Shown: one piece after another, positions 398 to 43,443 of the stretch | Layout of the letters: the number at the start of each line of letters is the position of its first letter | How positions within the stretch are numbered: the stretch's first letter is position 1 | Notes under the pieces: generated by a model | What the model saw: the letters and a program-made list of their open reading frames with translations, nothing else | Told to the model about the DNA's origin: nothing | Database searches by the model: none | Position numbers and translations under genes: made by a program | Assembly (NCBI GenBank): GCA_019310525.1 | Contig: JAFDEE010000013.1 | Span: forward strand, 1-44,795 | Reading direction: 5' to 3' | DNA length: 44,795 bases | Source: Deltaproteobacteria bacterium | GTDB lineage: Bacteria > Desulfobacterota > DSM-4660 > Desulfatiglandales > HGW-15

Positions 398-413
398 CGT
401 CAATATGTTGACG
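398..413. promoter_or_regulatory. FleQ-box-like palindrome upstream of a sigma-54 promoter
   Basis: CGTCAATATGTTGACG is an inverted repeat with perfect 6-bp arms around TATG. Its core GTCAATATGTTGAC differs by one base from the Pseudomonas FleQ box GTCAATNNATTGAC as I recall it. It sits about 110 bp upstream of the -24 element at 523, a usual distance for an enhancer of an NtrC-type activator. A related site is at 17106-17119. Binding by the activator encoded at 4040-5482 is an inference. Confidence 0.6.
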
Positions 414-522: not shown

Positions 523-539
523 TGGCACAGGATGTGCTT
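523..539 (+). promoter_or_regulatory. Sigma-54 (-24/-12) promoter for the 595-5482 genes
   Basis: TGGCACAGGATGTGCTT carries the invariant GG (524-525) and GC (536-537) separated by exactly 10 bases, and a full TGGCAC -24 block. The ATG at 595 is about 55 bases downstream. A palindromic activator-type site lies about 110 bp upstream. This places the small secreted protein and the TPR protein under RpoN, with the flagellar genes. Confidence 0.85.
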
Positions 540-594: not shown

Positions 595-927
595 ATGAAA
601 AAGAAAAGGGCAGGTTCTTTGCCGGGGTGGGTGTGCCTCCTGCTCCTGGTTTTATCTTTTCCGGGTGTGGCCCTTGGAGGGGAAGGGATTCCGAAGGTCC
701 AGGTACCTGAAGGCGTTTACATCAATCTTACCAGAGATTTCTATGAGGCCCTCAGGGATGAAGGGGGAAGGGGCCCCCGAACTTACAGTAACGATCCCTC
801 TGCAGAATACCTGCGACAAATCGCCATCTCCACCCGGTTCATGGTGGAGACCAATCTCCAAATCCTGAAACTCCAGGAGGAGATCCTGCGGCTCTTGAAG
901 ACGCAGTCTGGATCCGGAAGGAAATGA
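595..927 (+). CDS. Small exported protein of unknown function
   Basis: This 110-residue protein starts with basic residues and a hydrophobic stretch (about 11-28) ending near ALGG, a likely Sec signal peptide. No lipobox cysteine is seen. The mature part is short and polar; its C-terminal third (about 70-105) looks helical and coiled-coil-like, rich in Leu, Glu and Lys. I recognise no family. The start has a GCGAGGA ribosome site (583-589). The stop overlaps the start of the TPR gene by 4 bases (ATGA), so the two are probably translationally coupled and may act together in the periplasm. The sigma-54 promoter at 523 suggests co-expression with flagellar genes; a flagellar role is only inferred. 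Confidence 0.75.
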   Translation: MKKKRAGSLPGWVCLLLLVLSFPGVALGGEGIPKVQVPEGVYINLTRDFYEALRDEGGRGPRTYSNDPSAEYLRQIAISTRFMVETNLQILKLQEEILRLLKTQSGSGRK

Positions 928-3900
928 AGATCCCGCTCAGATGTCTCATTGCCGGGCTTTTATGCCTGGTGGGCACGGTCTTTCCCAGGGAGACCGGGGC
1001 AGCCAATAAGGTTTACGATTACCGCCTGCTTAAGGAAAAGGGTGTGGCCAGGTTTGTGCTCCTGCTGGAGGAGTCCCCGAAATATAGTTTGAAACCGGCC
1101 CGTGGAGGAGCCTTGAAACTCACGTTGGCCGACGCCCGGATCGAGACCCGATTGAGCCGGGTACCGGGGACCCATCCAGGGGATGTGAAGATCGAGGAAG
1201 AAAAAAAGAACCCATCCGGCCTGACATTTCATATCCGGCTCGGGGGCCCGGCTCGTCTTGTGGAGACCTCTTGGCTCCCAAAGGAAAAACTTTTGCTCCT
1301 TACGGCCAAGCTGGGCGGAGCGGGGGATTGGCCCGCCAAGCCCGTAAAAACCGTCCTGAAGAGGCTTCGATTCGGTATCCAGAAAGAGTATTCCAGGATG
1401 GTGGCGGACCTTGGGAAAAGGCCCATGTGGGAATGGGATCGGAGAGCGGCAAACCGGGCCGTGTTGAGGATCCCAAAGGGCCTGACGCGTCTTCGAAGGA
1501 AGGAGTTTACGGGCATTGATCGAATCGGGGATGTGAGAGTGAAGAGAGCACCTGGAGGCGTGGATATCGATCTGGTCTTTACAGGGACCGACGGGGATCA
1601 TGCCAGGATCTTCTGGCTTGATGCCGGGAAGAAACTCGTGGCTGATTTTTTCGATCGGCCCCTGGCCCTGACAGATGAGCGCCTTCGGTTGAAAAGGAAG
1701 GAAAGGGAAGATGTAAAGATCGCCAAAAAGGAGTCCCAACCATCCAAGGATCCCGCTTTGGAGAAGGGAAAGGCGGGTGAGGACATCCGTGGACCCCTGG
1801 CCTCTGAAAATCTTTCCGCAGGGACGGAGAGGAAGGAGATGCCGCCCGTTCCCTCATCAGCGCCCGGTGGCGGGCCTGTGGTGAGGAAGAAGATCCACCG
1901 GCCCGGGCAATCTCCAGGGTCCGGAACAACGGTGGCGGCCATCCCCCCACCCGTGATCCACCCCGTAGATATCATCATAGAACCCGACATTGACCTGGAT
2001 CACATGGACCGGATCTACAACCCGGAATGGGTCCACCATCTGAACTCGGAAGAGGCCTTTCTGGTGGGCCGCATCCAGGAAGCCTGGGAGACCAAGGCCT
2101 ATGAGAAGGGGGCCAAGCTCATGGAAGACTTCCTTTCGCGTTTTCCCGAGTCGCCCTTGAGGGAAAGCCTCTCTTTCCTGATCGGTGACTTCCGGTTGGC
2201 CCTCCTGAAAGAGGGGAGAAAAGAGGTCTTCCCTCTGGTCATTAAGAGTTATTCCGAGGCGGTCCGGCGTTTCCCCCAATCGGGACGGGTGGGGAGAACT
2301 TACGTGAGAATGGCTCAGGCCGAGGCCTTCATGGGAAGGAATTATGATGCCCTGGCTTCCCTAGATATGGCTATCGGGCGGTACCCGGAGGGCTCCCATC
2401 TCCCCCTCGCCTACCTGACCCGGGGCAAGGTCTATCTCCGGTTGAATCAGCCGGAAAAGGCTGTCAGGGACCTCAAGGTTGTATTGAGCCGCTTCCCCCA
2501 CTCTTCGGTCGTGGAGGAGGCCCATTATGAGATCGCCAAATATCTTTATAGCGTGGGCGCCTATAAAGAGGCGAAGAAAAGGTTCAGTGAACTTCTTGAG
2601 AAAGACCCGGATTTCTATCTCAAGTTCCCAGGGTTCCTGAGCTTTATGGCCCAGACATCCCTTTACCTTAAGGATTACGAGACCGCCCGTAATTATTACT
2701 TCAAGGCCCTGAATCTCGGGCACCAACCGGAGTCCGAGGATTTATTGCTCGCCCATATCGGGGATACCTATAACCAGCAGTCCAGGGAACGGGAGGCGGA
2801 AAAGTTTTATCGCCTTGCCATCGAGTTGGATCCCGAGAGCGAAGGGGCGTCCATCGCCCGCCTGCGCCTGGCCGACTATGCCTCCGGGGTGACCTTGTTT
2901 AAAGAGGTGCACCAGAAAAACCTCAATAACACCATCGGGGATCTGGCGTTGCTGAACATGGCCAAGCGGCTCTACGAACAGAGACAGTATCAGATGGCCA
3001 TGGATACCCTGAAAAAGCTCATGGAAAAGCCGAAGAATCCGGATATCCAGGAGAAGGCCCGGGATCTGTACGCCAGTGCCGTGGAGGAGGAACTCAAGAA
3101 GCGTTACAAGTCCGGAGAATACGATAAGGTGGTGGCTATGCGGGAGTCCGGGATCCTGCCGAGACCCTCAAAGCTGGACCCCGAAGTTTACCTCATGGTC
3201 GCCCAGTCTTACTACCATCTTGAGAAATACGGAGAAGCCATCCAGGTGTTCAGGGCCGTCAAGCCCTATGATCTTTCCCTGACCTCAAAGGGGGCCTATT
3301 TCATGCAGTTGGCGGACTGCTACGAACGCGAAGGGGATCTCCTGAGGGCCGAGAAGGTCTTGGAGCAGGGACGCCGGGAAGGACTGGCGACCGCCGACAA
3401 GCAGAGGATCACCCTGAAACTGGCCGACCTGCTCAAGGAGAATGCAGACTTCAGAAGGGCCTATGGACTCTATGAGAGCGTGGTAAAGGACAAGAGGGTG
3501 TTGAGCGACCTGGAGATCGCCCGGGCCTACCTGGCCATGGGTCAAATCAGCAACCTGGAACAGCGTTACGAGAGGGCCCGGGCCTCACTCAACCGGTGTA
3601 TCGCCCTGGCGGAGAAAGACCGAAAGGATCTGGGCCTCCTTCAGTCGGCCTACGTGGAGATGGGAAACGGATACCACCGTGAAGGAAATGATGCCATGGC
3701 CATCAAGGCCTACCGCAGGGGGCTGGATCTTGGATACGGTCCGGAGAAAAAGGATTACTGGAAAATAAATTACCGTCTGGCCCTCTCCTACCTGAACACA
3801 GGGAAAACCAGGGAGGCGGAAGAGATTTTCAACGCTATAGCGGAAGAGGGAGATCCCTTGCTGCAACAGAAGGTCCAGATCAAGATGGGGATGATGGACC

Positions 3901-3959
3901 TGGAAAAGCAATTGAAACGACTCCCAATCCCCAGGGATCGGGAGGAAGAGACCCTTTAG
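924..3959 (+). CDS. Large exported TPR-repeat protein, AMIN-like N-terminus
   Basis: The 1011-residue product has a signal peptide (about 1-27, ending near TGAA). Residues about 30-245 look beta-rich and resemble AMIN-type domains, possibly two copies; this is weak, from pattern alone. A charged, Pro/Gly-rich linker spans about 250-345. Residues about 370-990 are a long run of tetratricopeptide repeats with recurrent Tyr, Ala and Leu spacing, for example the helices around GEAIQVFRAV and REAEEIFNAI. AMIN domains bind cell-wall components in other proteins, so a periplasmic scaffold for flagellar assembly is plausible. The gene overlaps the upstream small gene by 4 bases and lies under the sigma-54 promoter at 523. 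The exact role is unknown. Confidence 0.85.
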   Translation: MKIPLRCLIAGLLCLVGTVFPRETGAANKVYDYRLLKEKGVARFVLLLEESPKYSLKPARGGALKLTLADARIETRLSRVPGTHPGDVKIEEEKKNPSGLTFHIRLGGPARLVETSWLPKEKLLLLTAKLGGAGDWPAKPVKTVLKRLRFGIQKEYSRMVADLGKRPMWEWDRRAANRAVLRIPKGLTRLRRKEFTGIDRIGDVRVKRAPGGVDIDLVFTGTDGDHARIFWLDAGKKLVADFFDRPLALTDERLRLKRKEREDVKIAKKESQPSKDPALEKGKAGEDIRGPLASENLSAGTERKEMPPVPSSAPGGGPVVRKKIHRPGQSPGSGTTVAAIPPPVIHPVDIIIEPDIDLDHMDRIYNPEWVHHLNSEEAFLVGRIQEAWETKAYEKGAKLMEDFLSRFPESPLRESLSFLIGDFRLALLKEGRKEVFPLVIKSYSEAVRRFPQSGRVGRTYVRMAQAEAFMGRNYDALASLDMAIGRYPEGSHLPLAYLTRGKVYLRLNQPEKAVRDLKVVLSRFPHSSVVEEAHYEIAKYLYSVGAYKEAKKRFSELLEKDPDFYLKFPGFLSFMAQTSLYLKDYETARNYYFKALNLGHQPESEDLLLAHIGDTYNQQSREREAEKFYRLAIELDPESEGASIARLRLADYASGVTLFKEVHQKNLNNTIGDLALLNMAKRLYEQRQYQMAMDTLKKLMEKPKNPDIQEKARDLYASAVEEELKKRYKSGEYDKVVAMRESGILPRPSKLDPEVYLMVAQSYYHLEKYGEAIQVFRAVKPYDLSLTSKGAYFMQLADCYEREGDLLRAEKVLEQGRREGLATADKQRITLKLADLLKENADFRRAYGLYESVVKDKRVLSDLEIARAYLAMGQISNLEQRYERARASLNRCIALAEKDRKDLGLLQSAYVEMGNGYHREGNDAMAIKAYRRGLDLGYGPEKKDYWKINYRLALSYLNTGKTREAEEIFNAIAEEGDPLLQQKVQIKMGMMDLEKQLKRLPIPRDREEETL

Positions 3960-4039: not shown

Positions 4040-5482
4040 ATGCCGAAAACGAATCGAAAAAAAATCCTGTGGACGGTCAGGGATTTTGCTCCTCCCAAGA
4101 GCCTCTGGGACCGACTCGAAGAGATGGACATGAAAGTCCTTCTGGCCGATCCGGGGGAAGATCCTCTTGAAAAAATCCAGAAGTCGTCCCCGGCCCTTTG
4201 GGTCGCCCAGACCAACGGAGGATCCGCGGATAACCTGGCGATGCTGGACAAGATTCGTTCGACCTGTCCGGATCTTCCTATCGTCGTAATGAGCACCGCA
4301 CCGAGCGTGGAAGAGGCGGTCAAAATCCTCAAAATGGGAATCCGGGACTACATTCCCAAAGGCGCTTCGGAAGAACAGATCCGCCTGAGCGTGGAAGGGG
4401 TTTTGGGGCAATCTTTGAGCCGGAAATCTTTTTCCCGCCCCAAGATGCAAGGGCAGGACGATTCCCAGGAAGCTCCTATTGCCGTTGATTCGGCCATGAA
4501 AAAGATCCTCGCTCTGGCCAGGAAGGTCGCCGGCAGCAGGACAACTATCCTGATACAGGGTGAGAGCGGAACCGGGAAGGAGGTCCTCGCCCGGTACATT
4601 CATCGCTGCAGCAACAGGAAAGAAGCGCCTTTCGTGGCAGTCAACTGTTCCGCCCTGCCCGAGACCTTGCTGGAAAGCGAACTCTTCGGGCATGAGCGGG
4701 GAGCCTTTACCGGCGCCGTAGCCCGGAAAAAGGGAAAATTCGAATTGGCCGACGGAGGCACCCTGCTCCTGGACGAGATCAGCGAGATGGATATCTCCAT
4801 CCAGGCCAAGCTCCTGCGGGTGTTGCAGGAAAGGGAAGTGGACCGGGTCGGCGGACAGTTTCCCGTTCCCGTTGACACCCGGGTCATCGCCACCACGAAC
4901 CGGGACCTTGAAAGTGAAACAAAAAAAGGTCGCTTCCGGCTCGACCTCTTTTACCGCCTCAACGTGATCCCCCTCCGATTGCCCCCCCTCAGGGATCGGC
5001 CCGATGACATCGTCCCGCTGGCCAACCATTTTCTTGAAAGGCATTGCAGTCTCAACGGTATTTCCCAAAAAAGGCTGACCCCGGAAGGTGAAAAGTTTTT
5101 GAAAGAGAGGGGATGGCCGGGAAATGTCAGGGAACTGGAAAATCTCATGGAAAGGGCCACCCTCCTGGTGGAATCGGACCAGGTGGGGCGAGCGGACCTC
5201 GAAGAAATTCTCGGGCCGGGAGAGGACGAATCTGTTGAATTCGGAATCGATCGCGTTCTTCCCCTCAAGGATATGGAAAAGCGAATGATATTCCGCGCCC
5301 TGAACGACCACGGGGGAAACCGGACCCATGCCGCAAGGGTTCTGGGAATCAGCGTCCGGACCCTGCGAAACAAGCTTAACGAGTACCAGGAAGAACTCAA
5401 GAGGAGCAGGGCAACAGAGGAAAGCCCGCAGGGCGTCAAATTCCCGACAGGCCGGGCCTCTTCGGGAAGGGATGGGACCTAG
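4040..5482 (+). CDS. Sigma-54 activator with degenerate receiver (FleQ/FlrA-like)
   Basis: The 480-residue protein is an NtrC-family enhancer-binding protein. Residues 8-125 have receiver-like spacing, but the acidic pair is gone (ILWTVRD) and the phospho-acceptor position is about A56-Q57 instead of Asp; the switch Lys (YIPK) remains. The AAA+ domain has Walker A GESGTGK (174-180), an intact GAFTGA sigma-54 loop (221-226) and Walker B LLLDE (242-246). A Fis-type helix-turn-helix follows (about 427-446). FleQ and FlrA, flagellar master activators, also have non-phosphorylatable receivers, so this is the best analogue. It lies between the TPR gene and flgB. No strong ribosome site precedes the ATG. 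It may act on the GTCAA-type palindromes in the window (inference). Confidence 0.9.
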   Translation: MPKTNRKKILWTVRDFAPPKSLWDRLEEMDMKVLLADPGEDPLEKIQKSSPALWVAQTNGGSADNLAMLDKIRSTCPDLPIVVMSTAPSVEEAVKILKMGIRDYIPKGASEEQIRLSVEGVLGQSLSRKSFSRPKMQGQDDSQEAPIAVDSAMKKILALARKVAGSRTTILIQGESGTGKEVLARYIHRCSNRKEAPFVAVNCSALPETLLESELFGHERGAFTGAVARKKGKFELADGGTLLLDEISEMDISIQAKLLRVLQEREVDRVGGQFPVPVDTRVIATTNRDLESETKKGRFRLDLFYRLNVIPLRLPPLRDRPDDIVPLANHFLERHCSLNGISQKRLTPEGEKFLKERGWPGNVRELENLMERATLLVESDQVGRADLEEILGPGEDESVEFGIDRVLPLKDMEKRMIFRALNDHGGNRTHAARVLGISVRTLRNKLNEYQEELKRSRATEESPQGVKFPTGRASSGRDGT

Positions 5483-11591: not shown

Positions 11592-12035
11592 GTGGGATAT
11601 TCCTTCAGATACCAGCCCGTCCTCAACTACCGGGAGCGGCGGAAGGAACAGGCCGAGATCGCCCTGGCCAAGGCCCGGGAACGGCTGGGAGAGGCCCGCA
11701 GACTACTGGAAGAGTACCGTAGAAAACTTTACGAGACAACCCGGGACTTCGAGTCCAGATTAAAGACGGGAATGTCGGCCGATGAGATTCAAAACCACCG
11801 GGAATACCTGGAGACCCTCGGGAGGCGAATCGAGTCCCAAGAAGAGGAAGTTTTCAGGTTGGAAAAGGTGGTGCGCCGAAAGATGCACGAAGTCCTCCAG
11901 CGGAGCAGGGAATACAGGATCATGGAAAAGCTCAGGGACAAGGACTTCGATGCCTGGCGTCGCAAGCAATTTCAGGAAGAGCAGAAATGGATGAACGAGG
12001 TGGCAGTCACCCGCCACGGAAGGGAGTTCCCATGA
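11592..12035 (+). CDS. fliJ: Flagellar export protein FliJ
   Basis: FliJ is a small coiled-coil protein that acts like the gamma stalk of the FliI ring and recycles chaperones. The 147-residue product is almost wholly helical and charged, starting with a Tyr/Phe-rich segment (YSFRYQPVLNYRERRKEQAE), as in FliJ proteins. The GTG start at 11592 is preceded by the purine-rich GAAGGAAGGATTAGGAA. The 3' end overlaps the following MotE-like gene by 4 bases. Position after fliI strongly supports the call, because FliJ sequences are poorly conserved. Confidence 0.92.
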   Translation: MGYSFRYQPVLNYRERRKEQAEIALAKARERLGEARRLLEEYRRKLYETTRDFESRLKTGMSADEIQNHREYLETLGRRIESQEEEVFRLEKVVRRKMHEVLQRSREYRIMEKLRDKDFDAWRRKQFQEEQKWMNEVAVTRHGREFP

Positions 12036-12610
12036 AGGACAGGAAATGGACGTACTTCGGGTTGGGGTTTCTCCTGCTCGGCCTGGTGGGAGTCAAGATC
12101 CTGTTGAGTGGAATCTTTCTTGATTTCAGTGCCCTTGGTTTTTCCACCCCGTCTTTGGCCGTCGCCGGTGACAGGGGCGTATCCGATAAAACCCCTGCGG
12201 CTCCGGAGGCTTCGCCGGAACCTTCTTCGGAAACGCTTGAGAGGAAGGCCCAGGAACTGAGGGCCAAGGAACTGGAACTGCAGAAAAGAGAACAGGAACT
12301 CCTGCCGCTCAAGGCCGAGATAGAGGAAAAACTGGCACAGTTGAACGAGCTTCAACTCAGGTTGACGGCCTATGCCAAGCAGTTGGCCGACAGAGAGAAG
12401 GCCCTGGAGGATGCCAAGATGGCTCATCTCGTGGCCCTTTATTCGGCAATGGAACCAGCGCGGGCGGCCGCCATCATGGACAAACTCAAGATCCAGACGG
12501 TGGTCCTCATTCTCCGGCACATGAAGGGGAAATCCGCGGGAAAGATCCTCGCAATGATGAATCCGGAACGAGGCGCCCTGATAAGCGAGAAACTGGCCCA
12601 CCTCAATTAA
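12032..12610 (+). CDS. MotE-like protein: membrane anchor, coiled coil, MgtE_N domain
   Basis: This 192-residue protein has one N-terminal membrane helix (about 7-28), an Ala/Pro/Ser-rich spacer, a strongly charged coiled coil (about 65-125) and a C-terminal MgtE N-domain-like segment with ALYSAMEPARAAAIMDKL and TVVLILRHMKGKSAGKILA. Proteins of this shape lie next to fliJ in many flagellar operons; the alphaproteobacterial MotE is a periplasmic chaperone for the stator-associated MotC. Neither MotC nor MotB is visible here, so MotE-like describes architecture rather than a proven function. The ATG overlaps fliJ by 4 bases. Confidence 0.8.
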   Translation: MKDRKWTYFGLGFLLLGLVGVKILLSGIFLDFSALGFSTPSLAVAGDRGVSDKTPAAPEASPEPSSETLERKAQELRAKELELQKREQELLPLKAEIEEKLAQLNELQLRLTAYAKQLADREKALEDAKMAHLVALYSAMEPARAAAIMDKLKIQTVVLILRHMKGKSAGKILAMMNPERGALISEKLAHLN

Positions 12611-12947
12611 GGGGGTCTTCTTTTCCGGGAATCCCCCTGCCCCGTCCCCATGTGATTTCCCGCTGATCCCCAACCGACCACCTGACCTTCCACCCCATCC
12701 GACCTTGAAATGGGCGATCCTTTCTACACCCGCCCAGTAACGGGCCTCACCCAGGTGATAAGGAAATTTTTACCTACCTGCCTGCAGCGTACGGCCAAAT
12801 TTTTCCCTGCCTTCAGGTCCCTGTATCCGGCTATTGTAATGTAATTGTCTGGAATTATTAAAAATGCTGCCAAGGCTCTTCAATGGCACACCCATTGCTC
12901 ACCTGTATCTGCGAAAGGAACAGGACCAGAAGGGATAAGGAGACGCC
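12611..12947. other. Intergenic region before fliK
   Basis: No gene is seen in this 337-base gap. Directly after the MotE-like stop, G5 and C5 runs (12611-12615 and 12633-12637) could pair as a weak stem with a long loop, not a convincing terminator. An AT-rich patch (about 12830-12865) and the sigma-54 promoter at 12884 follow. No GTCAA-type palindrome as good as those at 398 and 17106 was found. Confidence 0.6.
12884..12899 (+). promoter_or_regulatory. Sigma-54 promoter for fliK-flgD-flgE
   Basis: TGGCACACCCATTGCT matches the sigma-54 consensus TGGCAC-N5-TTGCW at every defined position, with GG and GC 10 bases apart. The fliK ATG is 49 bases downstream, behind the ribosome site AAGGAGA. 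It would start a hook operon that ends at the terminator at 16948. Confidence 0.88.
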
Positions 12948-14699
12948 ATGCAACAGGTCGCTCAAATGATGATGTCCCTCGCCATAACGGGAGGAGACAA
13001 ACCGGCGGGCATGCGGAAAACTCCCCAGGAGATCGGAAACGGCCTCTTCAAGACTTTTCTCACCAGAGGCGGTGAATCCCTCTTTTCTGAAAAGGGCGCC
13101 CGATCTGTCGTAGGTGACGGGGGAAAGAGGGGTGCCCGGGGCTCCGACCCCCTGAAGATGCTGGAGGACATCCTGAAATACGTGGGAATGCCCACTTCAC
13201 AATTCAGGCTGCCTCCCGGGGTCACCCCACAGCTCATCCATTTCCTGGAAAAGAGGGGCCTCAGTCGGGAAGAAATCAGCAGGCTCCTCCAGTCAGCCAC
13301 GGATGCAGACGGAATGATCCAAATGGATCGCCTCTTGGCAGGGCTTGGGAAGGGACTGGAAAGGCAAGGGGATGCCGTCCCCGAGCTGATCGTGGAGATG
13401 GATCGGGTGCCCGAGGTGGAGTCCCTCCTCTTCAAGCTGGGTTTCGGCGTCGAAGACGTCAAGAAGATGATGGAGAATTCGGTGAGGGAGGGGGAAGGTC
13501 TATCTTTGTCCAGGCTCTCCAGGGAACTCGGCGGGAGGATCCCCGGGTTTTCCTCTGAGAAGGAAATCGCGGCCTTCCTCAGTGAGCAGGGAATCAAGAG
13601 CCGTCCTCGGGTATTAGGTGACTCTCTTGGTCTGGAGGTCGAGAAAAAGATCAAAGCCTTTTCCGATGTGACCCCGGAGGAGCTTCAACAGAAGGTCAAA
13701 AGTGAGATAGCCGGGATCCTGAGGCGGAAAGGCGTGCCTCCCGAGGAAGTCAAGGCCTTCCTTGAAAGACTCTCGATAAAGACCCACAGCGGGAATTCGC
13801 GGGCGGAGGATCCGCTAAACGCCTCAACCAGGGGCAAGGGAGCGAGCGAGGCAGAGGCCATGAACCTCTTGAGCCAGGTGGTGATCAAGCCCCGTTCCGA
13901 CCAGCGCCCCGGGGGGTGGCAGAAGAGGATCATGGAGATCCTGAGACAGGAGAACCTGGCCGGGAATTTCGGTCAACCGGTGGAAACCCCGGAGGATGAA
14001 GGCCATGTGCTGCGTTCCGCCATCGCCGAGTGGATCAAGGGGGGCAAGGCGGGACAGATGATCTCTGATCTCCAAGGGGAAAGGGTCCCCTGGACCGCCG
14101 GGCGGCCGATCCTTCAGGGGAAGGCGGAAACCCATGGCGGGCGGACAAAAGGTCGAACGACCGGCGTCAAGGATTTTATCGAAGTGAGGAATGCAGCCGG
14201 GAATGATCTTCAGGGGAGCAGGGAGATCAATGGAATCCGGGAAGGTGGAACCTTGAATTCCTCCAGGGAGACCGGCGGATTGCCCCATCCCCTTCCAAGG
14301 ATCGTTGAAAAGATCGGCCTCATGATACGGGGCGGTGAGCAGCGGGGCAGTATCCGGATCTCTCCTCCCGAACTGGGCCGCCTGGAGGTGGAGCTCGTGA
14401 TCAAGCAGGGACATGTACATGCAAACCTGAGCACAGAGAATCCCATGGTGAAAGAGATCATAGAGGCCAACCTCCATCATCTCAGGCAGCAATTGACCGA
14501 GCAGGGTTTTATCGTCGAAAAATTCGAGGTCATGGTGGGATTGGGGGATCGTCAAGAGCGCGAAAGGAACGACTGGATGGCGGGGGGAAGCGGACGCAGG
14601 CGGAGATCTTTCGGGCAGACAGGGGAGGAGCCGGCCCTTTCTCCGGTGATCCAGGATACGGTCGTCTCGGAGGACGGCCAGGTGAGCGTCCACGTGTGA
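12948..14699 (+). CDS. fliK: Flagellar hook-length control protein FliK
   Basis: FliK is an exported ruler that measures the hook and flips FlhB specificity from hook to filament substrates. The 583-residue protein has the FliK C-terminal domain at about 447-535, including GSIRISPPELGRLEVELVI and ANLHHLRQQLTEQGF. The N-terminal half is unusual: helical units of about 37-40 residues recur near 96-134, 156-193 and 254-275, with shared patterns such as FLEKRGLSREEISRLLQ, FKLGFGVEDVKKMMEN and LRRKGVPPEEVKAFLE. FliK N-termini are normally disordered and variable. It lies directly upstream of flgD and flgE, behind a sigma-54 promoter. Confidence 0.93.
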   Translation: MQQVAQMMMSLAITGGDKPAGMRKTPQEIGNGLFKTFLTRGGESLFSEKGARSVVGDGGKRGARGSDPLKMLEDILKYVGMPTSQFRLPPGVTPQLIHFLEKRGLSREEISRLLQSATDADGMIQMDRLLAGLGKGLERQGDAVPELIVEMDRVPEVESLLFKLGFGVEDVKKMMENSVREGEGLSLSRLSRELGGRIPGFSSEKEIAAFLSEQGIKSRPRVLGDSLGLEVEKKIKAFSDVTPEELQQKVKSEIAGILRRKGVPPEEVKAFLERLSIKTHSGNSRAEDPLNASTRGKGASEAEAMNLLSQVVIKPRSDQRPGGWQKRIMEILRQENLAGNFGQPVETPEDEGHVLRSAIAEWIKGGKAGQMISDLQGERVPWTAGRPILQGKAETHGGRTKGRTTGVKDFIEVRNAAGNDLQGSREINGIREGGTLNSSRETGGLPHPLPRIVEKIGLMIRGGEQRGSIRISPPELGRLEVELVIKQGHVHANLSTENPMVKEIIEANLHHLRQQLTEQGFIVEKFEVMVGLGDRQERERNDWMAGGSGRRRRSFGQTGEEPALSPVIQDTVVSEDGQVSVHV

Positions 14700-17105: not shown

Positions 17106-17119
17106 GTCAATCCTTTGAC
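17106..17119. promoter_or_regulatory. FleQ-box-like palindrome upstream of motA
   Basis: GTCAATCCTTTGAC has perfect 5-bp arms (GTCAA, TTGAC) around four bases, the same arms and spacing as the site at 399-412. It matches the recalled FleQ box GTCAATNNATTGAC at all but one defined base. It lies about 130 bp upstream of the motA -24 element, a fitting enhancer position. Confidence 0.6.
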
Positions 17120-17248
17120 TATCCGGCCTTCTATGCCCTTCATTCGAAACCACGGCAAGGGATCATGTGGCGTCTGGCAAGGCTATCTACTTGAAATACC
17201 GTTAAAATCCCTTCAAACCATGTCTTCCCTTCCCCACCTGTCCGGATC

Positions 17249-17264
17249 TGGCACAGAGGTTGCT
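17249..17264 (+). promoter_or_regulatory. Sigma-54 promoter for motA-fliL-fliM...fliA
   Basis: TGGCACAGAGGTTGCT is a full consensus -24/-12 element, with GG (17250-17251) and GC (17262-17263) 10 bases apart. The motA ATG lies about 108 bases downstream. The genes that follow are closely spaced on the same strand through fliA, so this is probably the main promoter of the export-gate and sigma-28 operon. Confidence 0.88.
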
Positions 17265-28617: not shown

Positions 28618-29205
28618 ATGAGCGAAGACGATAAAAAGGATAAGCCCATTCCCGGGGAAGATGACGAAACGGGGGACATAAGTGAACGCGGCGAAACCCG
28701 GGGAGAGACACCGGAGGACAAGTCGAGACCCGGAAGATTGAAAAGGTGGACTTCATCACTGAGGAGGAGGCCTTGGATAACGGTGGGGGTCGCTACTTTC
28801 CTTTTTCTCGGTGTGGGCTTGGGTGTCACTGTTACCCAGGGAAAGAGGATAATCCCCGGCGAAACGATCCGAGCGGCGGTGTCCCCGCACCTGAAGGACC
28901 CGGGCAAGGATTACTACGAAGAAAAATTGAGACCTCTACTGCTTCCCTTGCCTTCAGGTTCGGAGAATCAGGCTGTGCTGATAAAGTTTTCGGTCATCTG
29001 GGACGGGTTGGCATCTTTTCGTTACCGGGCACTTGAACTCCAGATCCGAAACCGACTTTACACACACATGAAAAGCCTTGTAGCCCGAGAACAGGACCCA
29101 CAGGACAAAACCCCGCTTCTTGAAGCTGAGATGAGCAGGATCCTGAGGGAATCCCTGGGAACAGGAGACTTGGCGATCAAGATCAAAGAGGTCAAGGGGA
29201 TATAG
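28618..29205 (+). CDS. FliL-like membrane protein (second copy)
   Basis: This 195-residue protein has a long acidic, lysine-rich cytoplasmic N-terminus (about 1-40), one membrane helix (about 57-76, ITVGVATFLFLGVGLGVTVT) and a periplasmic part of about 115 residues. Size, topology and location in a flagellar operon fit FliL-type proteins, and the periplasmic segment has similar beta then helix spacing (QAVLIKFSVIWDGLASFRYR, then LEAEMSRILRESLG). The sequence is divergent: the typical C-terminal YFTEF is absent. The ATG follows AAGGAC, 30 bases after fliA. The FliL relation is moderate inference; the gene itself is well supported. Confidence 0.6.
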   Translation: MSEDDKKDKPIPGEDDETGDISERGETRGETPEDKSRPGRLKRWTSSLRRRPWITVGVATFLFLGVGLGVTVTQGKRIIPGETIRAAVSPHLKDPGKDYYEEKLRPLLLPLPSGSENQAVLIKFSVIWDGLASFRYRALELQIRNRLYTHMKSLVAREQDPQDKTPLLEAEMSRILRESLGTGDLAIKIKEVKGI

Positions 29206-29248: not shown

Positions 29249-29530
29249 ATGAGTTTCACGGGAACCGGTGGGCCGAAGGCCGTCTTGCCCGTCGCTGAGA
29301 GGATTTGGGCGGTACAGAAGAAGGGGAAGACCGATGAGAGGCGCCGGAGGAAGAACGGAAGAGAAGAATATGAGAAACGGGGCAAGGACGGGGAAGACCA
29401 GAAGGAACGCCACAGGGATACACCCCATAAAGGGGAAGAGAGTAAGGTTGAACAGGTGGAAGAGGATGTCGGATACGGTGCGGCCAAACCGAAGAAACGC
29501 ACGAGTGGAAAAGTCGATCTGGTAATTTGA
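29249..29530 (+). CDS. Small highly charged protein of unknown function
   Basis: The 93-residue product is rich in Lys, Arg, Glu and Asp, with no membrane helix or signal peptide, and is probably largely disordered. It starts SFTGTGGPKAVLPVAERIWA and ends in KVDLVI. The start is well supported by AAGGAGG, 7 bases before the ATG. I do not recognise a family. It sits between the FliL-like gene and a DUF2802-like gene, 44 and 13 bases from its neighbours, so it is probably part of the same transcript. Confidence 0.65.
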   Translation: MSFTGTGGPKAVLPVAERIWAVQKKGKTDERRRRKNGREEYEKRGKDGEDQKERHRDTPHKGEESKVEQVEEDVGYGAAKPKKRTSGKVDLVI

Positions 29531-30014: not shown

Positions 30015-30215
30015 GGCTCTCTCCCATCTCCTTTCACCTTTCCCGCACACCCCACCGGTCATTCGGCTGAAGATTTGATAAGTCAACCTTCCTCATTTAT
30101 GCTCTCCGGTTTCTTCCGCTCTGTCGGGAGAAGGATCGTTTCGGAACGCCCATAGGATCCAGGGGAGGAAGGGGCTGGGGCCTGGTGAAGTGGAATAGGT
30201 GGAGAATCCTCGGTG

Positions 30216-31301
30216 ATGTTTCGGGAAATAACGAAAGCAAATAACCTGCTGAGTGGGTTCAAGTCCGGGAAAGGTCACAGGGGAGCGCCTTTCAGGGCCG
30301 GAGAGATATTTACGGGAAGGGTGATAAAAGGATTACGGGGAGGGGAATTTCTTGTGTCGGCCCGTGGGAACCGCTTCCGTGCCCACGCGCGCATCGCACT
30401 GGCCGAAGGGAGGAGTTACAGGTTCCAGGTAAGGTGCGCTGGACCCAGGGTCGAGTTGAAGGTGGTGACCCCTGGACCTGACAGGCCCTTAAACCTCCTA
30501 TCGGGAAGAATAAGTGGCGGGGCTAGCCGGGAAAGACTGCCTGCTCTCCTCAGGGAGATCGTTGCGGCCCGGGACTGGAAGGGCATCTCGCCTTCCCTTA
30601 GGGAAGGTCTGCTGGAATTGAACCGCCTCTTAGCTTCCGTGATCTTCAAAGGATCCGGGAACGTCGGGGTTTCGTGGTTTGCGGAGTACCTTTTCAGGAG
30701 CGGGCTTTTTTGGGAGGGAAAGGTGGCCCGCCTACTCCTGGAGGGCCGGAAGATTGATCGAAACAAGTTGCTTCAAGGTGACCTGAAGGGCATTCTTCTG
30801 CGCCTGGAAAAGGATCTGAACGTGCTCGAGGGATGGAGCAAAGAGACAAAAGATCTTGCCCTCAAAATAAGAGAGGCCTTGCGGTTCATAGAACAGGATC
30901 AGTTTTTGAATCTTGCCTCCATAAAGGAGGCGGGTGGATGGTTTCTCTTCCTTCCCATAATGGGGGAGCGGGACTTCCATGGGGGCGAGTTGCTCGTTAA
31001 GGAACCGAAAGGAGAGGATGGAATCATCCGGTTTCATCTTTCCCTTGAGTTCAGTGAATTGGGTCCCATGGAAGTTTCGGTCTCGATCCTGGGAGGCATC
31101 CTGGACGCCCGGATCCTGGCAGCGGACGAGCGACGCCTTAAGATCCTCCAGGATAACCTTTCATTGCTGGAAAAGGGCCTGAGGAAAAAGGGATTGCAGC
31201 CGGGAACCCTGTCTTGCGGGATCCGGGGGGAAGAAGATGCGGGCAGGGTTTCAACGGAGCAGACTCGCGGGTCGACTCCGGGCGTGGACCTATCGGTATG
31301 A
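30216..31301 (+). CDS. FliK-like hook-length control domain protein (second)
   Basis: The ATG at 30216 gives 361 residues; GTG 30213 adds one and is closer to the GGAGA site at 30201-30205. The C-terminal segment (about 240-345) has a FliK/Flg_hook pattern: FHLSLEFSELGPMEVSVSIL, then DNLSLLEKGLRKKGLQPGTL. The N-terminal part (about 25-90) looks like a small beta barrel, with GRVIKGLRGGEFLVSARGNR. No signal peptide is seen. The canonical fliK is at 12948. This copy lies upstream of a stand-alone FlhB C-domain (31363), an arrangement like the Bacillus ylqG-ylqH pair as I recall it. Confidence 0.7.
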   Translation: MFREITKANNLLSGFKSGKGHRGAPFRAGEIFTGRVIKGLRGGEFLVSARGNRFRAHARIALAEGRSYRFQVRCAGPRVELKVVTPGPDRPLNLLSGRISGGASRERLPALLREIVAARDWKGISPSLREGLLELNRLLASVIFKGSGNVGVSWFAEYLFRSGLFWEGKVARLLLEGRKIDRNKLLQGDLKGILLRLEKDLNVLEGWSKETKDLALKIREALRFIEQDQFLNLASIKEAGGWFLFLPIMGERDFHGGELLVKEPKGEDGIIRFHLSLEFSELGPMEVSVSILGGILDARILAADERRLKILQDNLSLLEKGLRKKGLQPGTLSCGIRGEEDAGRVSTEQTRGSTPGVDLSV

Positions 31302-31362
31302 ACAGAGCCTCGGGACTTTTTTGCTTATAGGGGGAGGGAAAATCGTCCAAGGGGGATTTCAG

Positions 31363-31641
31363 ATGTCCCGGAAGGAGCGAAAGAAGGCCGTCGCCCTCAA
31401 GTATGATGCCGTTAAGGACAATGCTCCCAAGGTGACGGCCAAGGGCGGGGGACTCATTGCAGAACGTATCATTGAACTGGCCGGGCAGGCGGGGATTCCC
31501 ATCCGGGAAGACCCGGATTTGGTGGGTGCCCTCATGGAATTGGATTTACTGGATGAGATTCCTCCCGAACTTTACCAGGCCGTGGCCGAGATCCTGGCCT
31601 TCGCCTATCGTCTCAACCGCAGGATGAAAGAGGGTGGCTAG
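31363..31641 (+). CDS. FlhX: stand-alone FlhB C-terminal domain paralogue
   Basis: The ATG at 31363, 7 bases after AAGGGGG, gives 92 residues. The protein aligns by eye with the part of FlhB after its cleavage site: KKAVALKYD corresponds to HLAVALRYE, AERIIELAGQAGIPI to AHRIREVAEENGVPV, and IPPELYQAVAEILAFAY to IPSEFYQAVAEILAYVY. There are no membrane helices and no NPTH motif. Such FlhX proteins can partly replace the FlhB C-domain in Helicobacter. It overlaps no gene but sits directly after a FliK-like gene, suggesting a paired role. Confidence 0.88.
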   Translation: MSRKERKKAVALKYDAVKDNAPKVTAKGGGLIAERIIELAGQAGIPIREDPDLVGALMELDLLDEIPPELYQAVAEILAFAYRLNRRMKEGG

Positions 31642-31741
31642 AGAAGTCCGGTTCCTGGAATTTTCCGCACTTTGCCGTGAGGCTCGTTTTTGCAGAGCCG
31701 TCAGAGGCCTTAAAAAAGCCGATATCAGGGGGTATGCCGCC

Positions 31742-32056
31742 ATGGCGAGAAGAATTGCTGTTACGATTCTTTGTCTTTCTTTTTTCATGCTCATTCCTTC
31801 ATCCCTGTGTGCGGGCCTGAGTGCATTCCAATTCAAGATCATCAAGATCGCCTTTATGAACGGGTATGTAAGGGCACTCAGGACGGACGACCGATCCCTC
31901 CGGATCCTGAGAGAGAACCGGGACATCATGGAGCGGGTGGTGAAGGCGGAGGCCGAAAAATACATGGCCGAAGTTTCAGCCATGAACCAGACGAACCCCG
32001 CTTCCGGACCTTCTCCCTTTTCAGGGGAGACTTTCAAAGGAACCTCCGATTGGTAG
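31742..32056 (+). CDS. Small exported protein of unknown function
   Basis: The ATG at 31742 gives 104 residues; a GTG at 31634, overlapping the previous stop, would add a basic leader that spoils the signal peptide. Residues 1-20 look like a Sec signal (RRIAVTILCLSFFMLIPSSL then CAG). A cysteine lies at the end of that stretch (LCA), so a lipoprotein cannot be excluded, although the lipobox is poor. The mature part is helical and charged (FKIIKIAFMNGYVRALRTDD), with a Ser/Pro/Thr-rich tail. No family is recognised. It is the last gene before the flgF regulatory gap. Confidence 0.65.
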   Translation: MARRIAVTILCLSFFMLIPSSLCAGLSAFQFKIIKIAFMNGYVRALRTDDRSLRILRENRDIMERVVKAEAEKYMAEVSAMNQTNPASGPSPFSGETFKGTSDW

Positions 32057-37023: not shown

Positions 37024-37049
37024 AAAGCTTGAGAGAGAAGAAGGAGAAG

Positions 37050-37826
37050 ATGAAAGGACCAGCAGTAAATGACCTTGGAATCGCCCACCCCGGGATGAAA
37101 GGTGAGCAGGTGAAGACGGAAAGGGACCGGGCCCTCATGAAAGCCTGCCGGGAGTTCGAGTCCATCCTGACCTATCAACTGCTGAAGAGCATGCGGCGTA
37201 CCGTTGAGAAATGTGAACTCTTTCACGGGGGCCAGGGCGAGGAAATCTATGAGTCCCTGCTGGACCAGGAACTTGCCAGGAATATCGCACAATCGGAATC
37301 CAACAGCCTTGCTTACCTCCTCTACCAACAGCTCAAGAGAAAGGACAGGGTGGACCTGGAAGCCGGAACCCCTCCTTCACCAATGCCTCTCCCCCTCCGA
37401 AACCGTTACGGAGAGATCCCATTGACGCCCCTTGAGACGGCCCGGGAATCCTCTGGATTCGGGTGGCGGAAGGACCCCTTCACCGGGGAGAGGAAGTTTC
37501 ACTACGGGGTGGATCTCGCCGCCCGGGAAGGGACTATGGTGCGGGCCGCCCTCGGCGGAAAGGTTGTGGCCAGCGAATACCGCGAGGGATACGGGAACGT
37601 CGTGATCCTGGACCATGGAAAGGGGCTCAGGACCCTGTATGCCCACAACAAGGAAAACCTGGTGGAGGTCGGGGAATGGATTTCCAGGGGGTGCCCCGTG
37701 GCACGGGTAGGGTCCACGGGCCGAAGTACGGGACCACATCTGCACTTCGAGGTCAGACGGGAAGGAAAACCCCTGAACCCTGAAGCCTTCCTGAAAGAAG
37801 GGACCGCCAGGGTGGGCCGGGTTTAG
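37050..37826 (+). CDS. flgJ: FlgJ-type rod-binding protein fused to M23 peptidase
   Basis: FlgJ caps the growing rod and opens the peptidoglycan. The 258-residue protein has an N-terminal rod-binding domain (about 25-98), with ACREFESILTYQLLKSMRRT and EIYESLLDQELARNIAQSES. In place of the usual muramidase, residues 135-250 form an M23 (LytM-type) metallopeptidase: HYGVD (H151, D155), H199 in LYAHN, and HLHFE (H230, H232), all zinc/catalytic positions kept. No Sec signal is seen, so export is probably by the flagellar apparatus. It would cleave peptide cross-links rather than glycans. ATG 37050 follows AAGGAG closely. Confidence 0.9.
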   Translation: MKGPAVNDLGIAHPGMKGEQVKTERDRALMKACREFESILTYQLLKSMRRTVEKCELFHGGQGEEIYESLLDQELARNIAQSESNSLAYLLYQQLKRKDRVDLEAGTPPSPMPLPLRNRYGEIPLTPLETARESSGFGWRKDPFTGERKFHYGVDLAAREGTMVRAALGGKVVASEYREGYGNVVILDHGKGLRTLYAHNKENLVEVGEWISRGCPVARVGSTGRSTGPHLHFEVRREGKPLNPEAFLKEGTARVGRV

Positions 37827-41975: not shown

Positions 41976-41997
41976 CCGTGGAGGTTTGAGCCAAAAT
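41969..41997 (+). promoter_or_regulatory. Candidate sigma-70 promoter for the 42052 regulator
   Basis: A perfect TTGACA (41969-41974) is followed after 17 bases by CAAAAT (41992-41997), 4 of 6 matches to TATAAT. No GG-N10-GC sigma-54 element was found in this gap. The start point would be near 42004, giving a leader of about 48 bases. Confidence 0.5.
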
Positions 41998-42003
41998 ATT
42001 GGC
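41990..42003. promoter_or_regulatory. Palindrome over the -10 of the 42052 gene
   Basis: GCCAAAATATTGGC has perfect 5-bp arms around AATA. It shares AAAATATTG with the repeat at 41958-41975. It covers the candidate -10, a position suited to repression. Confidence 0.5.
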
Positions 42004-42051
42004 GTTTCTTGGGTTTCTGTTGGGATTCCAAATGCCCAGGGGGATGAAAAT

Positions 42052-43443
42052 ATGGCCGGAATAAAGATCTTGGTGGTGGATGATGAGGCCAAAATCAGGG
42101 ATCAGTTCACCGAATTCCTCCAGCGTCATGAATTTGAAGTCAATGTTGCCGAAAACGGCGAGGTGGCCATAGGGGTCCTGGAGCAGGATTTCTATGATGT
42201 GGCCCTTATCGACCTGAATATGCCTAAAGTGGACGGAATGGCCGTATTGCGCCACCTGGTGGATCACCACAGCGATACCGTGGGCATTATCCTTACGGGT
42301 TACGCCACGATCCGGAACGCGGTGGAGGCCATGAAAATAGGGGCCTATGACTATTTGGCCAAACCGGTCAAAATGGAAGAGGTCCTGATGGTCATCCAGC
42401 GGGCCTTGGAATTCAGGGACTTGAGGCGGGAGAATCTGGCCCTGAAAAGGCAGTTGAAGCAGAAGTACCGATTTGAAAATTTCGTGGGTGACAGCCCTCA
42501 GATGGCAAAGGTCTTCAGAATCATCGAAAAGGTGGCGGACACGGACAGCACAGTCCTTATTCTGGGGGAGTCCGGAACTGGAAAAGAATTGGTGGCCCGG
42601 GCGATCCACTATCACAGTTACAGGCGTGACAAACCTATGATCCCGGTCAACTGTGGGGCTATTCCGGAGGAACTCCTGGAAAGCGAACTCTTCGGTCACG
42701 AGAAGGGCGCCTTCACAAATGCCATAAGGACCCGCATCGGGCGTTTCGAACTGGCAGACGGGGGAACGATATTTCTGGACGAGGTCGCTGAAATGAGTCC
42801 TCACCTTCAGGTCAAACTCCTTCGGGTGCTTCAGGAGCAGGAGTTTGAACGGCTGGGAGGAACCAAGACCATCAAGTGTGACGTCCGCATTCTTGCGGCC
42901 ACCAATAAGAACCTGGAGAAGCTCATTGAGGACGGGACCTTCAGGGAAGATCTTTATTACCGTCTCAAGGTGATTCCCATCGAGATTCCCCCCTTGCGGG
43001 ACAGGAGAAGCGATATCCCCCTGCTGGTTCATCACTTTCTGGAGAAGACCTCCAAGGCCAAGAAAAAGCCTATCAAGGGGGTGTCAAGGGAGGTCATGAA
43101 CGCACTTACGCAGTATGATTGGCCCGGAAACGTGCGTGAACTTGAAAATATCGTAGAGCGTATGGTGATCCTGAGTGAGGGGGACACCTTGACCATAGAC
43201 GATCTGCCGGAAAAGATTTCCAGGAAGCAGGCCCCCAACCTGGCGATCCAGACCTCGATCCCGGATGAGGGGTTCTCCCTCAGCCATGCCATCAACGAGT
43301 ATGAACGCCAGTTGATCATAAGCGCCCTGGAAAAGGCCGACTGGGTGAAGAACAGGGCAGCAAAACTGTTGAATATGAACCGGACCACCCTGGTGGAGAA
43401 GATCAAGAAACAGGGAATTGAAAGGAATCGTATGGCGAACTGA
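42052..43443 (+). CDS. Sigma-54 response regulator (FlrC/FleR-like)
   Basis: This 463-residue NtrC-family regulator has a complete receiver: D10 and D11, phospho-acceptor D54, T82 and K104. The AAA+ domain has Walker A GESGTGK (172-178) and Walker B IFLDE (240-244). The sigma-54 contact loop is GAFTNA (219-224) instead of GAFTGA. A Fis-type helix-turn-helix lies near 432-455 (AAKLLNMNRTTLVEKIKK). The ATG follows AGGGGGATG. Position next to csrA-fliW and flgM suggests a flagellar class regulator like FlrC or FleR, but no partner kinase is in the window. A terminator follows about 44 bases after the stop. Confidence 0.9.
   Translation: MAGIKILVVDDEAKIRDQFTEFLQRHEFEVNVAENGEVAIGVLEQDFYDVALIDLNMPKVDGMAVLRHLVDHHSDTVGIILTGYATIRNAVEAMKIGAYDYLAKPVKMEEVLMVIQRALEFRDLRRENLALKRQLKQKYRFENFVGDSPQMAKVFRIIEKVADTDSTVLILGESGTGKELVARAIHYHSYRRDKPMIPVNCGAIPEELLESELFGHEKGAFTNAIRTRIGRFELADGGTIFLDEVAEMSPHLQVKLLRVLQEQEFERLGGTKTIKCDVRILAATNKNLEKLIEDGTFREDLYYRLKVIPIEIPPLRDRRSDIPLLVHHFLEKTSKAKKKPIKGVSREVMNALTQYDWPGNVRELENIVERMVILSEGDTLTIDDLPEKISRKQAPNLAIQTSIPDEGFSLSHAINEYERQLIISALEKADWVKNRAAKLLNMNRTTLVEKIKKQGIERNRMAN

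Follow-up and report, generated by a model that had tools for sequence, protein, structure and literature searches.

A sigma-54-linked gene pair in a flagellar cluster encodes a candidate PflA/MotK-like spoke protein and a small protein of a family without description

Background

What would two putatively secreted proteins, one small and helical and the other very large and built mostly of TPRs, contribute to a flagellar motor when their genes stand together at the head of a flagellar cluster? The question is raised by a 44,795-nucleotide contig of a Deltaproteobacteria bacterium (hereafter the window, taken over its full 44.8 kb), which is almost wholly flagellar and begins with such a pair (595-3959). 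An initial annotation had proposed a periplasmic scaffold around the motor that no standard flagellar list includes. Spokes made of AMIN and TPR domains are in fact already published: Campylobacter/Helicobacter have PflA, and Cereibacter has MotK (PMC11870540, PMC12222027, PMC10954123, PMC13023049), so that the last part of the claim is only partly right. The same annotation undervalued the small protein, which belongs to no described family.

PflA consists of an AMIN domain, a loop and 16-17 TPRs, and forms the spoke that connects FlgY with the PflB rim (PMC12222027, PMC11870540). The MS-ring of C. jejuni is encircled by FlgY dimers, which touch the PflA spokes; PflA in turn attaches to the PflB rim through its AMIN domain and loop, and the scaffold keeps the stators at a wider radius (PMC12222027, PMC11870540). 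In Cereibacter, MotK (an AMIN front with a TPR-like body) and MotE interact with one another and with MotB2, and rotation requires them (PMC10954123). A TPR gene is found near flagellar genes in ~52% of flagellated species, the products being proposed PflA homologues (PMC11870540), and a TPR protein of Bdellovibrio is a further proposed case (PMC5758724). That PflA-like TPR proteins are widespread is thus a published idea (PMC11870540). Surveys name TPR proteins near flagellar genes 'potential PflA' by proximity alone.

The gene pair and its neighborhood

The two open reading frames share an ATGA, which confirms the reported four-base overlap, and both products, like their orthologues, have signal-peptide-like N-termini when read by eye, in agreement with the signal peptides first assigned to them (Table 1). 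Elsewhere in the contig, family models confirm flgB, flgC, fliF, fliG, fliH, motA/pomA, fliL, flgG, flgA, flgH, flgI, fliK, flgJ, flgN, fliW and flgM. The same genome encodes a protein (12032-12610) with the long coiled coil and MgtE_N/FliG-like ARM head of the FlgY/MotE/FlbB type, and hence the E-ring partner that accompanies a PflA-type spoke. This product matches the FlbB model at E 2.8e-11, yet under the model's cut-off, and matches MgtE_N (E 2e-4) and FliG_M (E 1e-4), each under the gathering score.

Table 1. Positions of the gene pair, its domains and associated elements in the window
Feature	Position	Strand	Remarks
GTCAA-N4-TTGAC palindrome GTCAATATGTTGAC, perfect	399..412	+	124 bp upstream of promoter; probable NtrC-family activator enhancer site
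Sigma-54 (-24/-12) promoter TGGCACAGGATGTGCT	523..538	+	one mismatch vs consensus
Small secreted helical protein, 110 aa	595..927	+	family without description; signal peptide, short helix, 40-residue C-terminal helix
AMIN-AMIN-linker-TPR protein, 1011 aa	924..3959	+	PflA/MotK-like spoke candidate
First AMIN-like beta domain, residues 27-134	1002..1325	+	homologous to second domain
Second AMIN domain, residues 138-247	1335..1664	+	Pfam, profile, model
Proline-rich variable linker, residues 248-372	1665..2039	+	poor conservation, length varies
TPR solenoid, residues ~373-1000	2040..3923	+	Pfam, repeat count
Sigma-54 activator with receiver-like domain, FlbD-like	4040..5482	+	adjoins pair in orthologous loci too
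FlgY/MotE/FlbB-type E-ring protein	12032..12610	+	probable TM segment, coiled coil, MgtE_N/FliG-like head
Palindrome (17106-17119) and perfect sigma-54 promoter (17249-17264)	17106..17264	+	in front of motA

Domain organization of the large protein

The TPRs of the large protein are certain. They span ~630 residues, as the earlier count of more than 600 had it, with a Pfam TPR_14 match at E 1e-22 and 11 repeats exceeding a crude threshold, compared with 0-2 in shuffled sequences. Matches of the full protein or its profile to PDB sequences were set aside as generic TPRs, and a match on an Anaerolineae contig (L018), obtained when contigs were scanned with the full protein, was rejected as chance TPR similarity.

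The suggestion of an AMIN-like front gained support from profile, family and structural comparisons. A sequence profile of the front matched PilQ in the PDB at E 3.3e-8, and Pfam AMIN or AMIN-like models matched several orthologues (best E 6e-9). Structure prediction, which the initial annotation had recommended for residues 30-245, was run on residues 27-258 with an alignment including 14 orthologues and gave two beta domains (pLDDT 91, pTM 0.89). Foldseek returned PilQ as the sole strong match to this model (E 9e-5), and VIA-align superposed the two with Z 7.1 over 179 residues at an rmsd of 26 A, a value so large that the arrangement of the domains must differ or be flexible. The two domains align with each other in hhalign at 97% probability (E 6e-11); the halves are homologous, and the front is therefore a tandem AMIN of the PilQ kind, where PflA has one such domain. 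Residues R149, G151, R158, V160 and D241 form an AMIN signature common to the close orthologues and to more divergent AMIN-TPR proteins. PilQ, the type IV pilus secretin, is thus the nearest match to the front by profile and by fold; the large protein differs from it in having no secretin domain and TPRs in its place.

Read from its N-terminus, the large protein presents the features of a PflA-type spoke: the AMIN-like beta-sandwich, twice over, then a flexible linker (residues 248-372) and a TPR region of ~630 residues, where PflA has about 16-17 TPRs. PflA itself was not among the listed PDB matches of the front and full-protein profiles, nor among those of the front model in Foldseek and VIA-align, the last of these absences carrying no weight; its sequence is reportedly not conserved (PMC11870540).

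Promoter and upstream palindrome

The RpoN link proposed for the pair was borne out as a sequence feature, the promoter lying one base off consensus. The accompanying 'FleQ-like site' is present as a perfect palindrome, although it is better named an NtrC-family enhancer site, because both regulators encoded in the window resemble FlbD and NtrC/FlgR; a FleQ identity for the second of them (41986-43443) was dropped when NCBIfam placed it among NtrC/FlgR-like response regulators. For 37 loci, both elements were scored in the 350-base region that precedes the first gene. The promoter scored 17-18 of a possible 19 in most small-gene loci, and in 17 of the 20 loci having both elements the palindrome preceded the promoter by 112-141 bp (median 128), where shuffling puts the chance of such a palindrome at ~0.5% per 350-base stretch. 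These loci are not independent, being related, yet the identity of the TPR protein among them is only 30-40%. Within the window, the pairing of this type of palindrome with a sigma-54 promoter is common to the gene pair and motA.

Conservation of the locus

An arrangement in which orthologues lay mostly outside flagellar clusters, named at the outset as evidence against a motor role, is not what we found. Orthologues occupy the equivalent position, before a sigma-54 regulator and flgB-flgC-fliE-fliF, in ~10 relatives, and the order small gene, TPR gene, sigma-54 regulator, flgB-flgC-fliE-fliF-fliG-fliH-fliI(-fliJ-flgY) is kept. FliG is encoded in 11 of the 12 close genomes with the AMIN-TPR protein; in the exception, G051, a contig of 3.8 kb holds the pair. 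In eight other families (f14, f20, f21, f31, f39, f41, f74, f94), whose loci have no small gene, divergent AMIN-TPR proteins (714-1062 aa, 14-20% identical to that of the window) adjoin flgB/flgC/fliE/fliF; these loci are a selected set, having been picked from AMIN-profile matches with long ORFs. Another divergent protein, of 1226 aa, is encoded between the two regulators. Four further AMIN-profile matches (L141-L143, L145), which had no flagellar neighbors, were set aside as generic AMIN proteins. Together, the orthologues in relatives and the divergent AMIN-TPR proteins in the same flagellar slot leave the proposal of a motor role unrefuted.

A small protein family associated with flagella

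The description of the first product as a small helical protein agrees with its model, which shows a short helix (residues 47-57) and a confident 40-residue helix (68-107). With only one helix confident, a Foldseek search with this model returned nothing meaningful, and no solved relative was found by sequence or fold. Neither Pfam nor NCBIfam gave a consistent match to the 23 members of the family. The conserved core begins with P-x-G-V-Y-x-x-L-T-x-(D/E)-F-Y-x-A-L, continues with a Y-(S/T)-N/GD stretch and ends in (I/V)S-x-x-F-M-V-x-T-N-L-x-I-I-K-x-Q-E-x-I-I-x-L-L. Relatives within the order are 39-52% identical to it when the whole aligned protein is compared and 45-63% identical within BLAST matches, which makes the small protein better conserved than the TPR protein (30-40%).

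By profile search, 15 of the 85 genomes in its class encode the small protein, as do members of further families in the phylum; a match in G437 (E 3.5e-4) was rejected as chance, the ORF being aldolase-like. Core flagellar genes lie on the same stretch in 23 of 26 loci, and two others, at contig ends, have the TPR gene next to the small gene. The remaining locus, in G017, holds a copy of 30% identity outside flagellar clusters, near guaA and a lytic transglycosylase-like ORF. The positions within flagellar clusters vary: in families f12 and f55 (L074-L082) the small gene is followed by a TPR protein of ~350-500 aa without AMIN, a regulator and flgB, family f43 has it between flgG and flgA, and in G012 and G079 (L054, L055) it is tail-to-tail with flgY. 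The flagellar cluster of the latter two is diverged, with flgB only ~31-34% identical to that of the window while the small gene exceeds 50%, which suggests that the two have different histories.

The small gene is also associated with FliG. It is present in 13 of 45 FliG-bearing genomes of its own class and 2 of 40 without FliG (Fisher p 0.004), and in the class of G312 in 12 of 13 compared with 2 of 16, the latter being drafts (p 2e-5), both p values ignoring kinship among genomes. The small family is tied to flagella in three lineages; most flagellated relatives are without it.

Loss of the small gene

Three genomes keep the TPR gene while the small gene is gone or reduced. The promoter stands upstream of the TPR gene with the small gene missing in G002 and G014; in G016 (L028 8215-8382) the small gene is cut in frame to 27 codons, with its first and last codons kept, beside an intact TPR gene and promoter. 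The G016 remnant may instead be an assembly collapse. No copy of the small gene was found elsewhere in G002, G014 (74% complete) or G016. Judging from these sequences, several losses of the small gene have left the spoke gene in place, and the small protein is therefore not essential to the putative spoke. Such repeated loss beside intact spoke genes provides natural knock-outs for tomographic comparison.

A spoke reading and its alternatives

A spoke of this motor is, on our analysis, the most economical reading of the large protein. The earlier idea of a periplasmic scaffold around the motor is accordingly the best available reading and partly supported, by the gene slot, the domains and the presence of FlgY in the cluster. 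To the reading in which the large protein serves in the periplasm as a stator-scaffold spoke of PflA/MotK type, with the small protein as an accessory subunit of the spoke/E-ring assembly, we give a probability of roughly seven in ten. The AMIN front, recognized by profile, model, Foldseek and Pfam, the TPR body, and the FlgY, FliL and MotA encoded in the window all point this way. Considered separately, the small protein probably serves as an accessory subunit of spoke or E-ring: its family stays next to a TPR gene in a second class, one with an AMIN-less TPR protein, and next to flgY in two genomes. Its absence from most flagellated relatives and the non-flagellar copy in G017 count against this reading.

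Compared with PflA of Campylobacter jejuni and Helicobacter pylori, the large protein has in common the AMIN-like beta-sandwich, flexible linker, long TPR superhelix and a FlgY in the genome, and its N-terminus, by eye, is typical of a signal peptide such as PflA has (PMC12222027, PMC11870540). It differs in its two tandem AMIN domains, in the coupled small protein and in its gene, which forms part of the flagellar cluster and has a sigma-54 promoter, whereas C. jejuni pflA is reported to be RpoN-independent, outside that cascade (PMC11870540); the second AMIN, this difference in control and the absence of PflA from the listed sequence matches count against a spoke. MotK (Cereibacter sphaeroides) and CC_2058 (Caulobacter) share with it an AMIN-like front, a TPR-like body, a periplasmic place (predicted for the large protein) and a flagellar cluster that also encodes a MotE/FlgY-type protein (PMC10954123, PMC13023049). 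Compared by their descriptions, the large protein is longer, has two AMINs and sits by flgB instead of in a fliL/motA operon. The 'potential PflA homologues' (PMC11870540) and the Bdellovibrio protein (PMC5758724) are also single large TPR proteins near flagellar genes; what unites the present group is its AMIN fold, its gene slot and its promoter, beyond proximity. What is new is the tandem-AMIN form, the fixed gene slot, the conserved sigma-54 control and, above all, the small-protein family. One group of candidates, from many families of a single phylum, is now linked by fold, slot and promoter, and the spoke idea can be tested there.

We infer a location, orientation, set of contacts and stator function as follows. 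The large protein would act as a spoke joining the FlgY E-ring to the stators, its tandem AMIN front and linker pointing outward, attached to peptidoglycan or to a rim partner, and the stators would thereby be held at a set radius. Binding to the wall, which the initial annotation assigned to the front, would be one possibility; in PflA the AMIN domain and linker bind PflB. The 40-residue C-terminal helix of the small protein may pack in the TPR groove or along the FlgY coiled coil. Both proteins would be made together from the sigma-54 promoter with its upstream NtrC-family site, as would MotA. We found no tomography or mutant data for these lineages in the literature.

More tentatively, the small protein could found a new motor-subunit family, an adaptor between the E-ring (FlgY) and TPR spokes that is produced along with the spoke in two separate classes and elsewhere stays next to flgY or flgG/flgA, and would then be a candidate for an unassigned periplasmic density or ring near E-ring and spokes. 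In either role it offers a trackable candidate for an unassigned motor part. It is rather unlikely that the large protein is a spoke and the small one solely its dedicated chaperone or stabilizer, with no place in the motor. The translational coupling implied by the ATGA overlap, the small size, the adjacency of small and TPR genes in two classes and the precedent of MotE, which stabilizes MotC in Sinorhizobium as quoted in PMC10954123, would suit such a helper. This stabilizer-only role is weakened, however, by copies that stay at flagellar sites apart from the TPR gene (at flgY in G012 and G079, at flgG-flgA in f43), and the small protein is better conserved than its supposed client and was lost where that client stayed.

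We consider it unlikely that the large protein is unrelated to PflA and, through convergent use of AMIN and TPR, has only fold elements in common with it. Similarity to the PflA sequence was undetectable with the searches used and both modules are common, but the shared module order, the shared FlgY cluster context and the stator-like regulation count against this, and convergence, even if real, would leave a spoke-like role possible. Quite improbable is a pair that serves as a cell-wall or outer-membrane assembly helper of the PilQ/AmiC type, accompanying flagella (opening or organizing the wall for rod and rings, for example) instead of forming a structural spoke: AMIN domains are typical of PilQ and amidases, and the small gene lies between flgG and flgA in f43 and near the lytic transglycosylase-like ORF in G017, but domain annotation of both products recognized no catalytic domain, the TPR solenoid is the bulk of the large protein, and the slot beside MS-ring/C-ring genes is conserved.

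Other features of the flagellar cluster

The cluster has two FliK-type genes, one (30213-31301) with a Flg_hook domain and directly followed by an orphan FlhB C-terminal piece (31237-31641), the other an ORF (12948-14699) at the fliK position of relatives. A perfect match to the sigma-54 promoter (TGGCACACCCATTGCT, 12884-12899) lies just upstream of the latter. The product of 37029-37826 fuses a FlgJ-like rod-binding domain to a peptidase M23 domain, where a glucosaminidase is usual. Three further ORFs of the cluster (28618-29205, 29249-29530 and 31634-32056) have zero Pfam matches.
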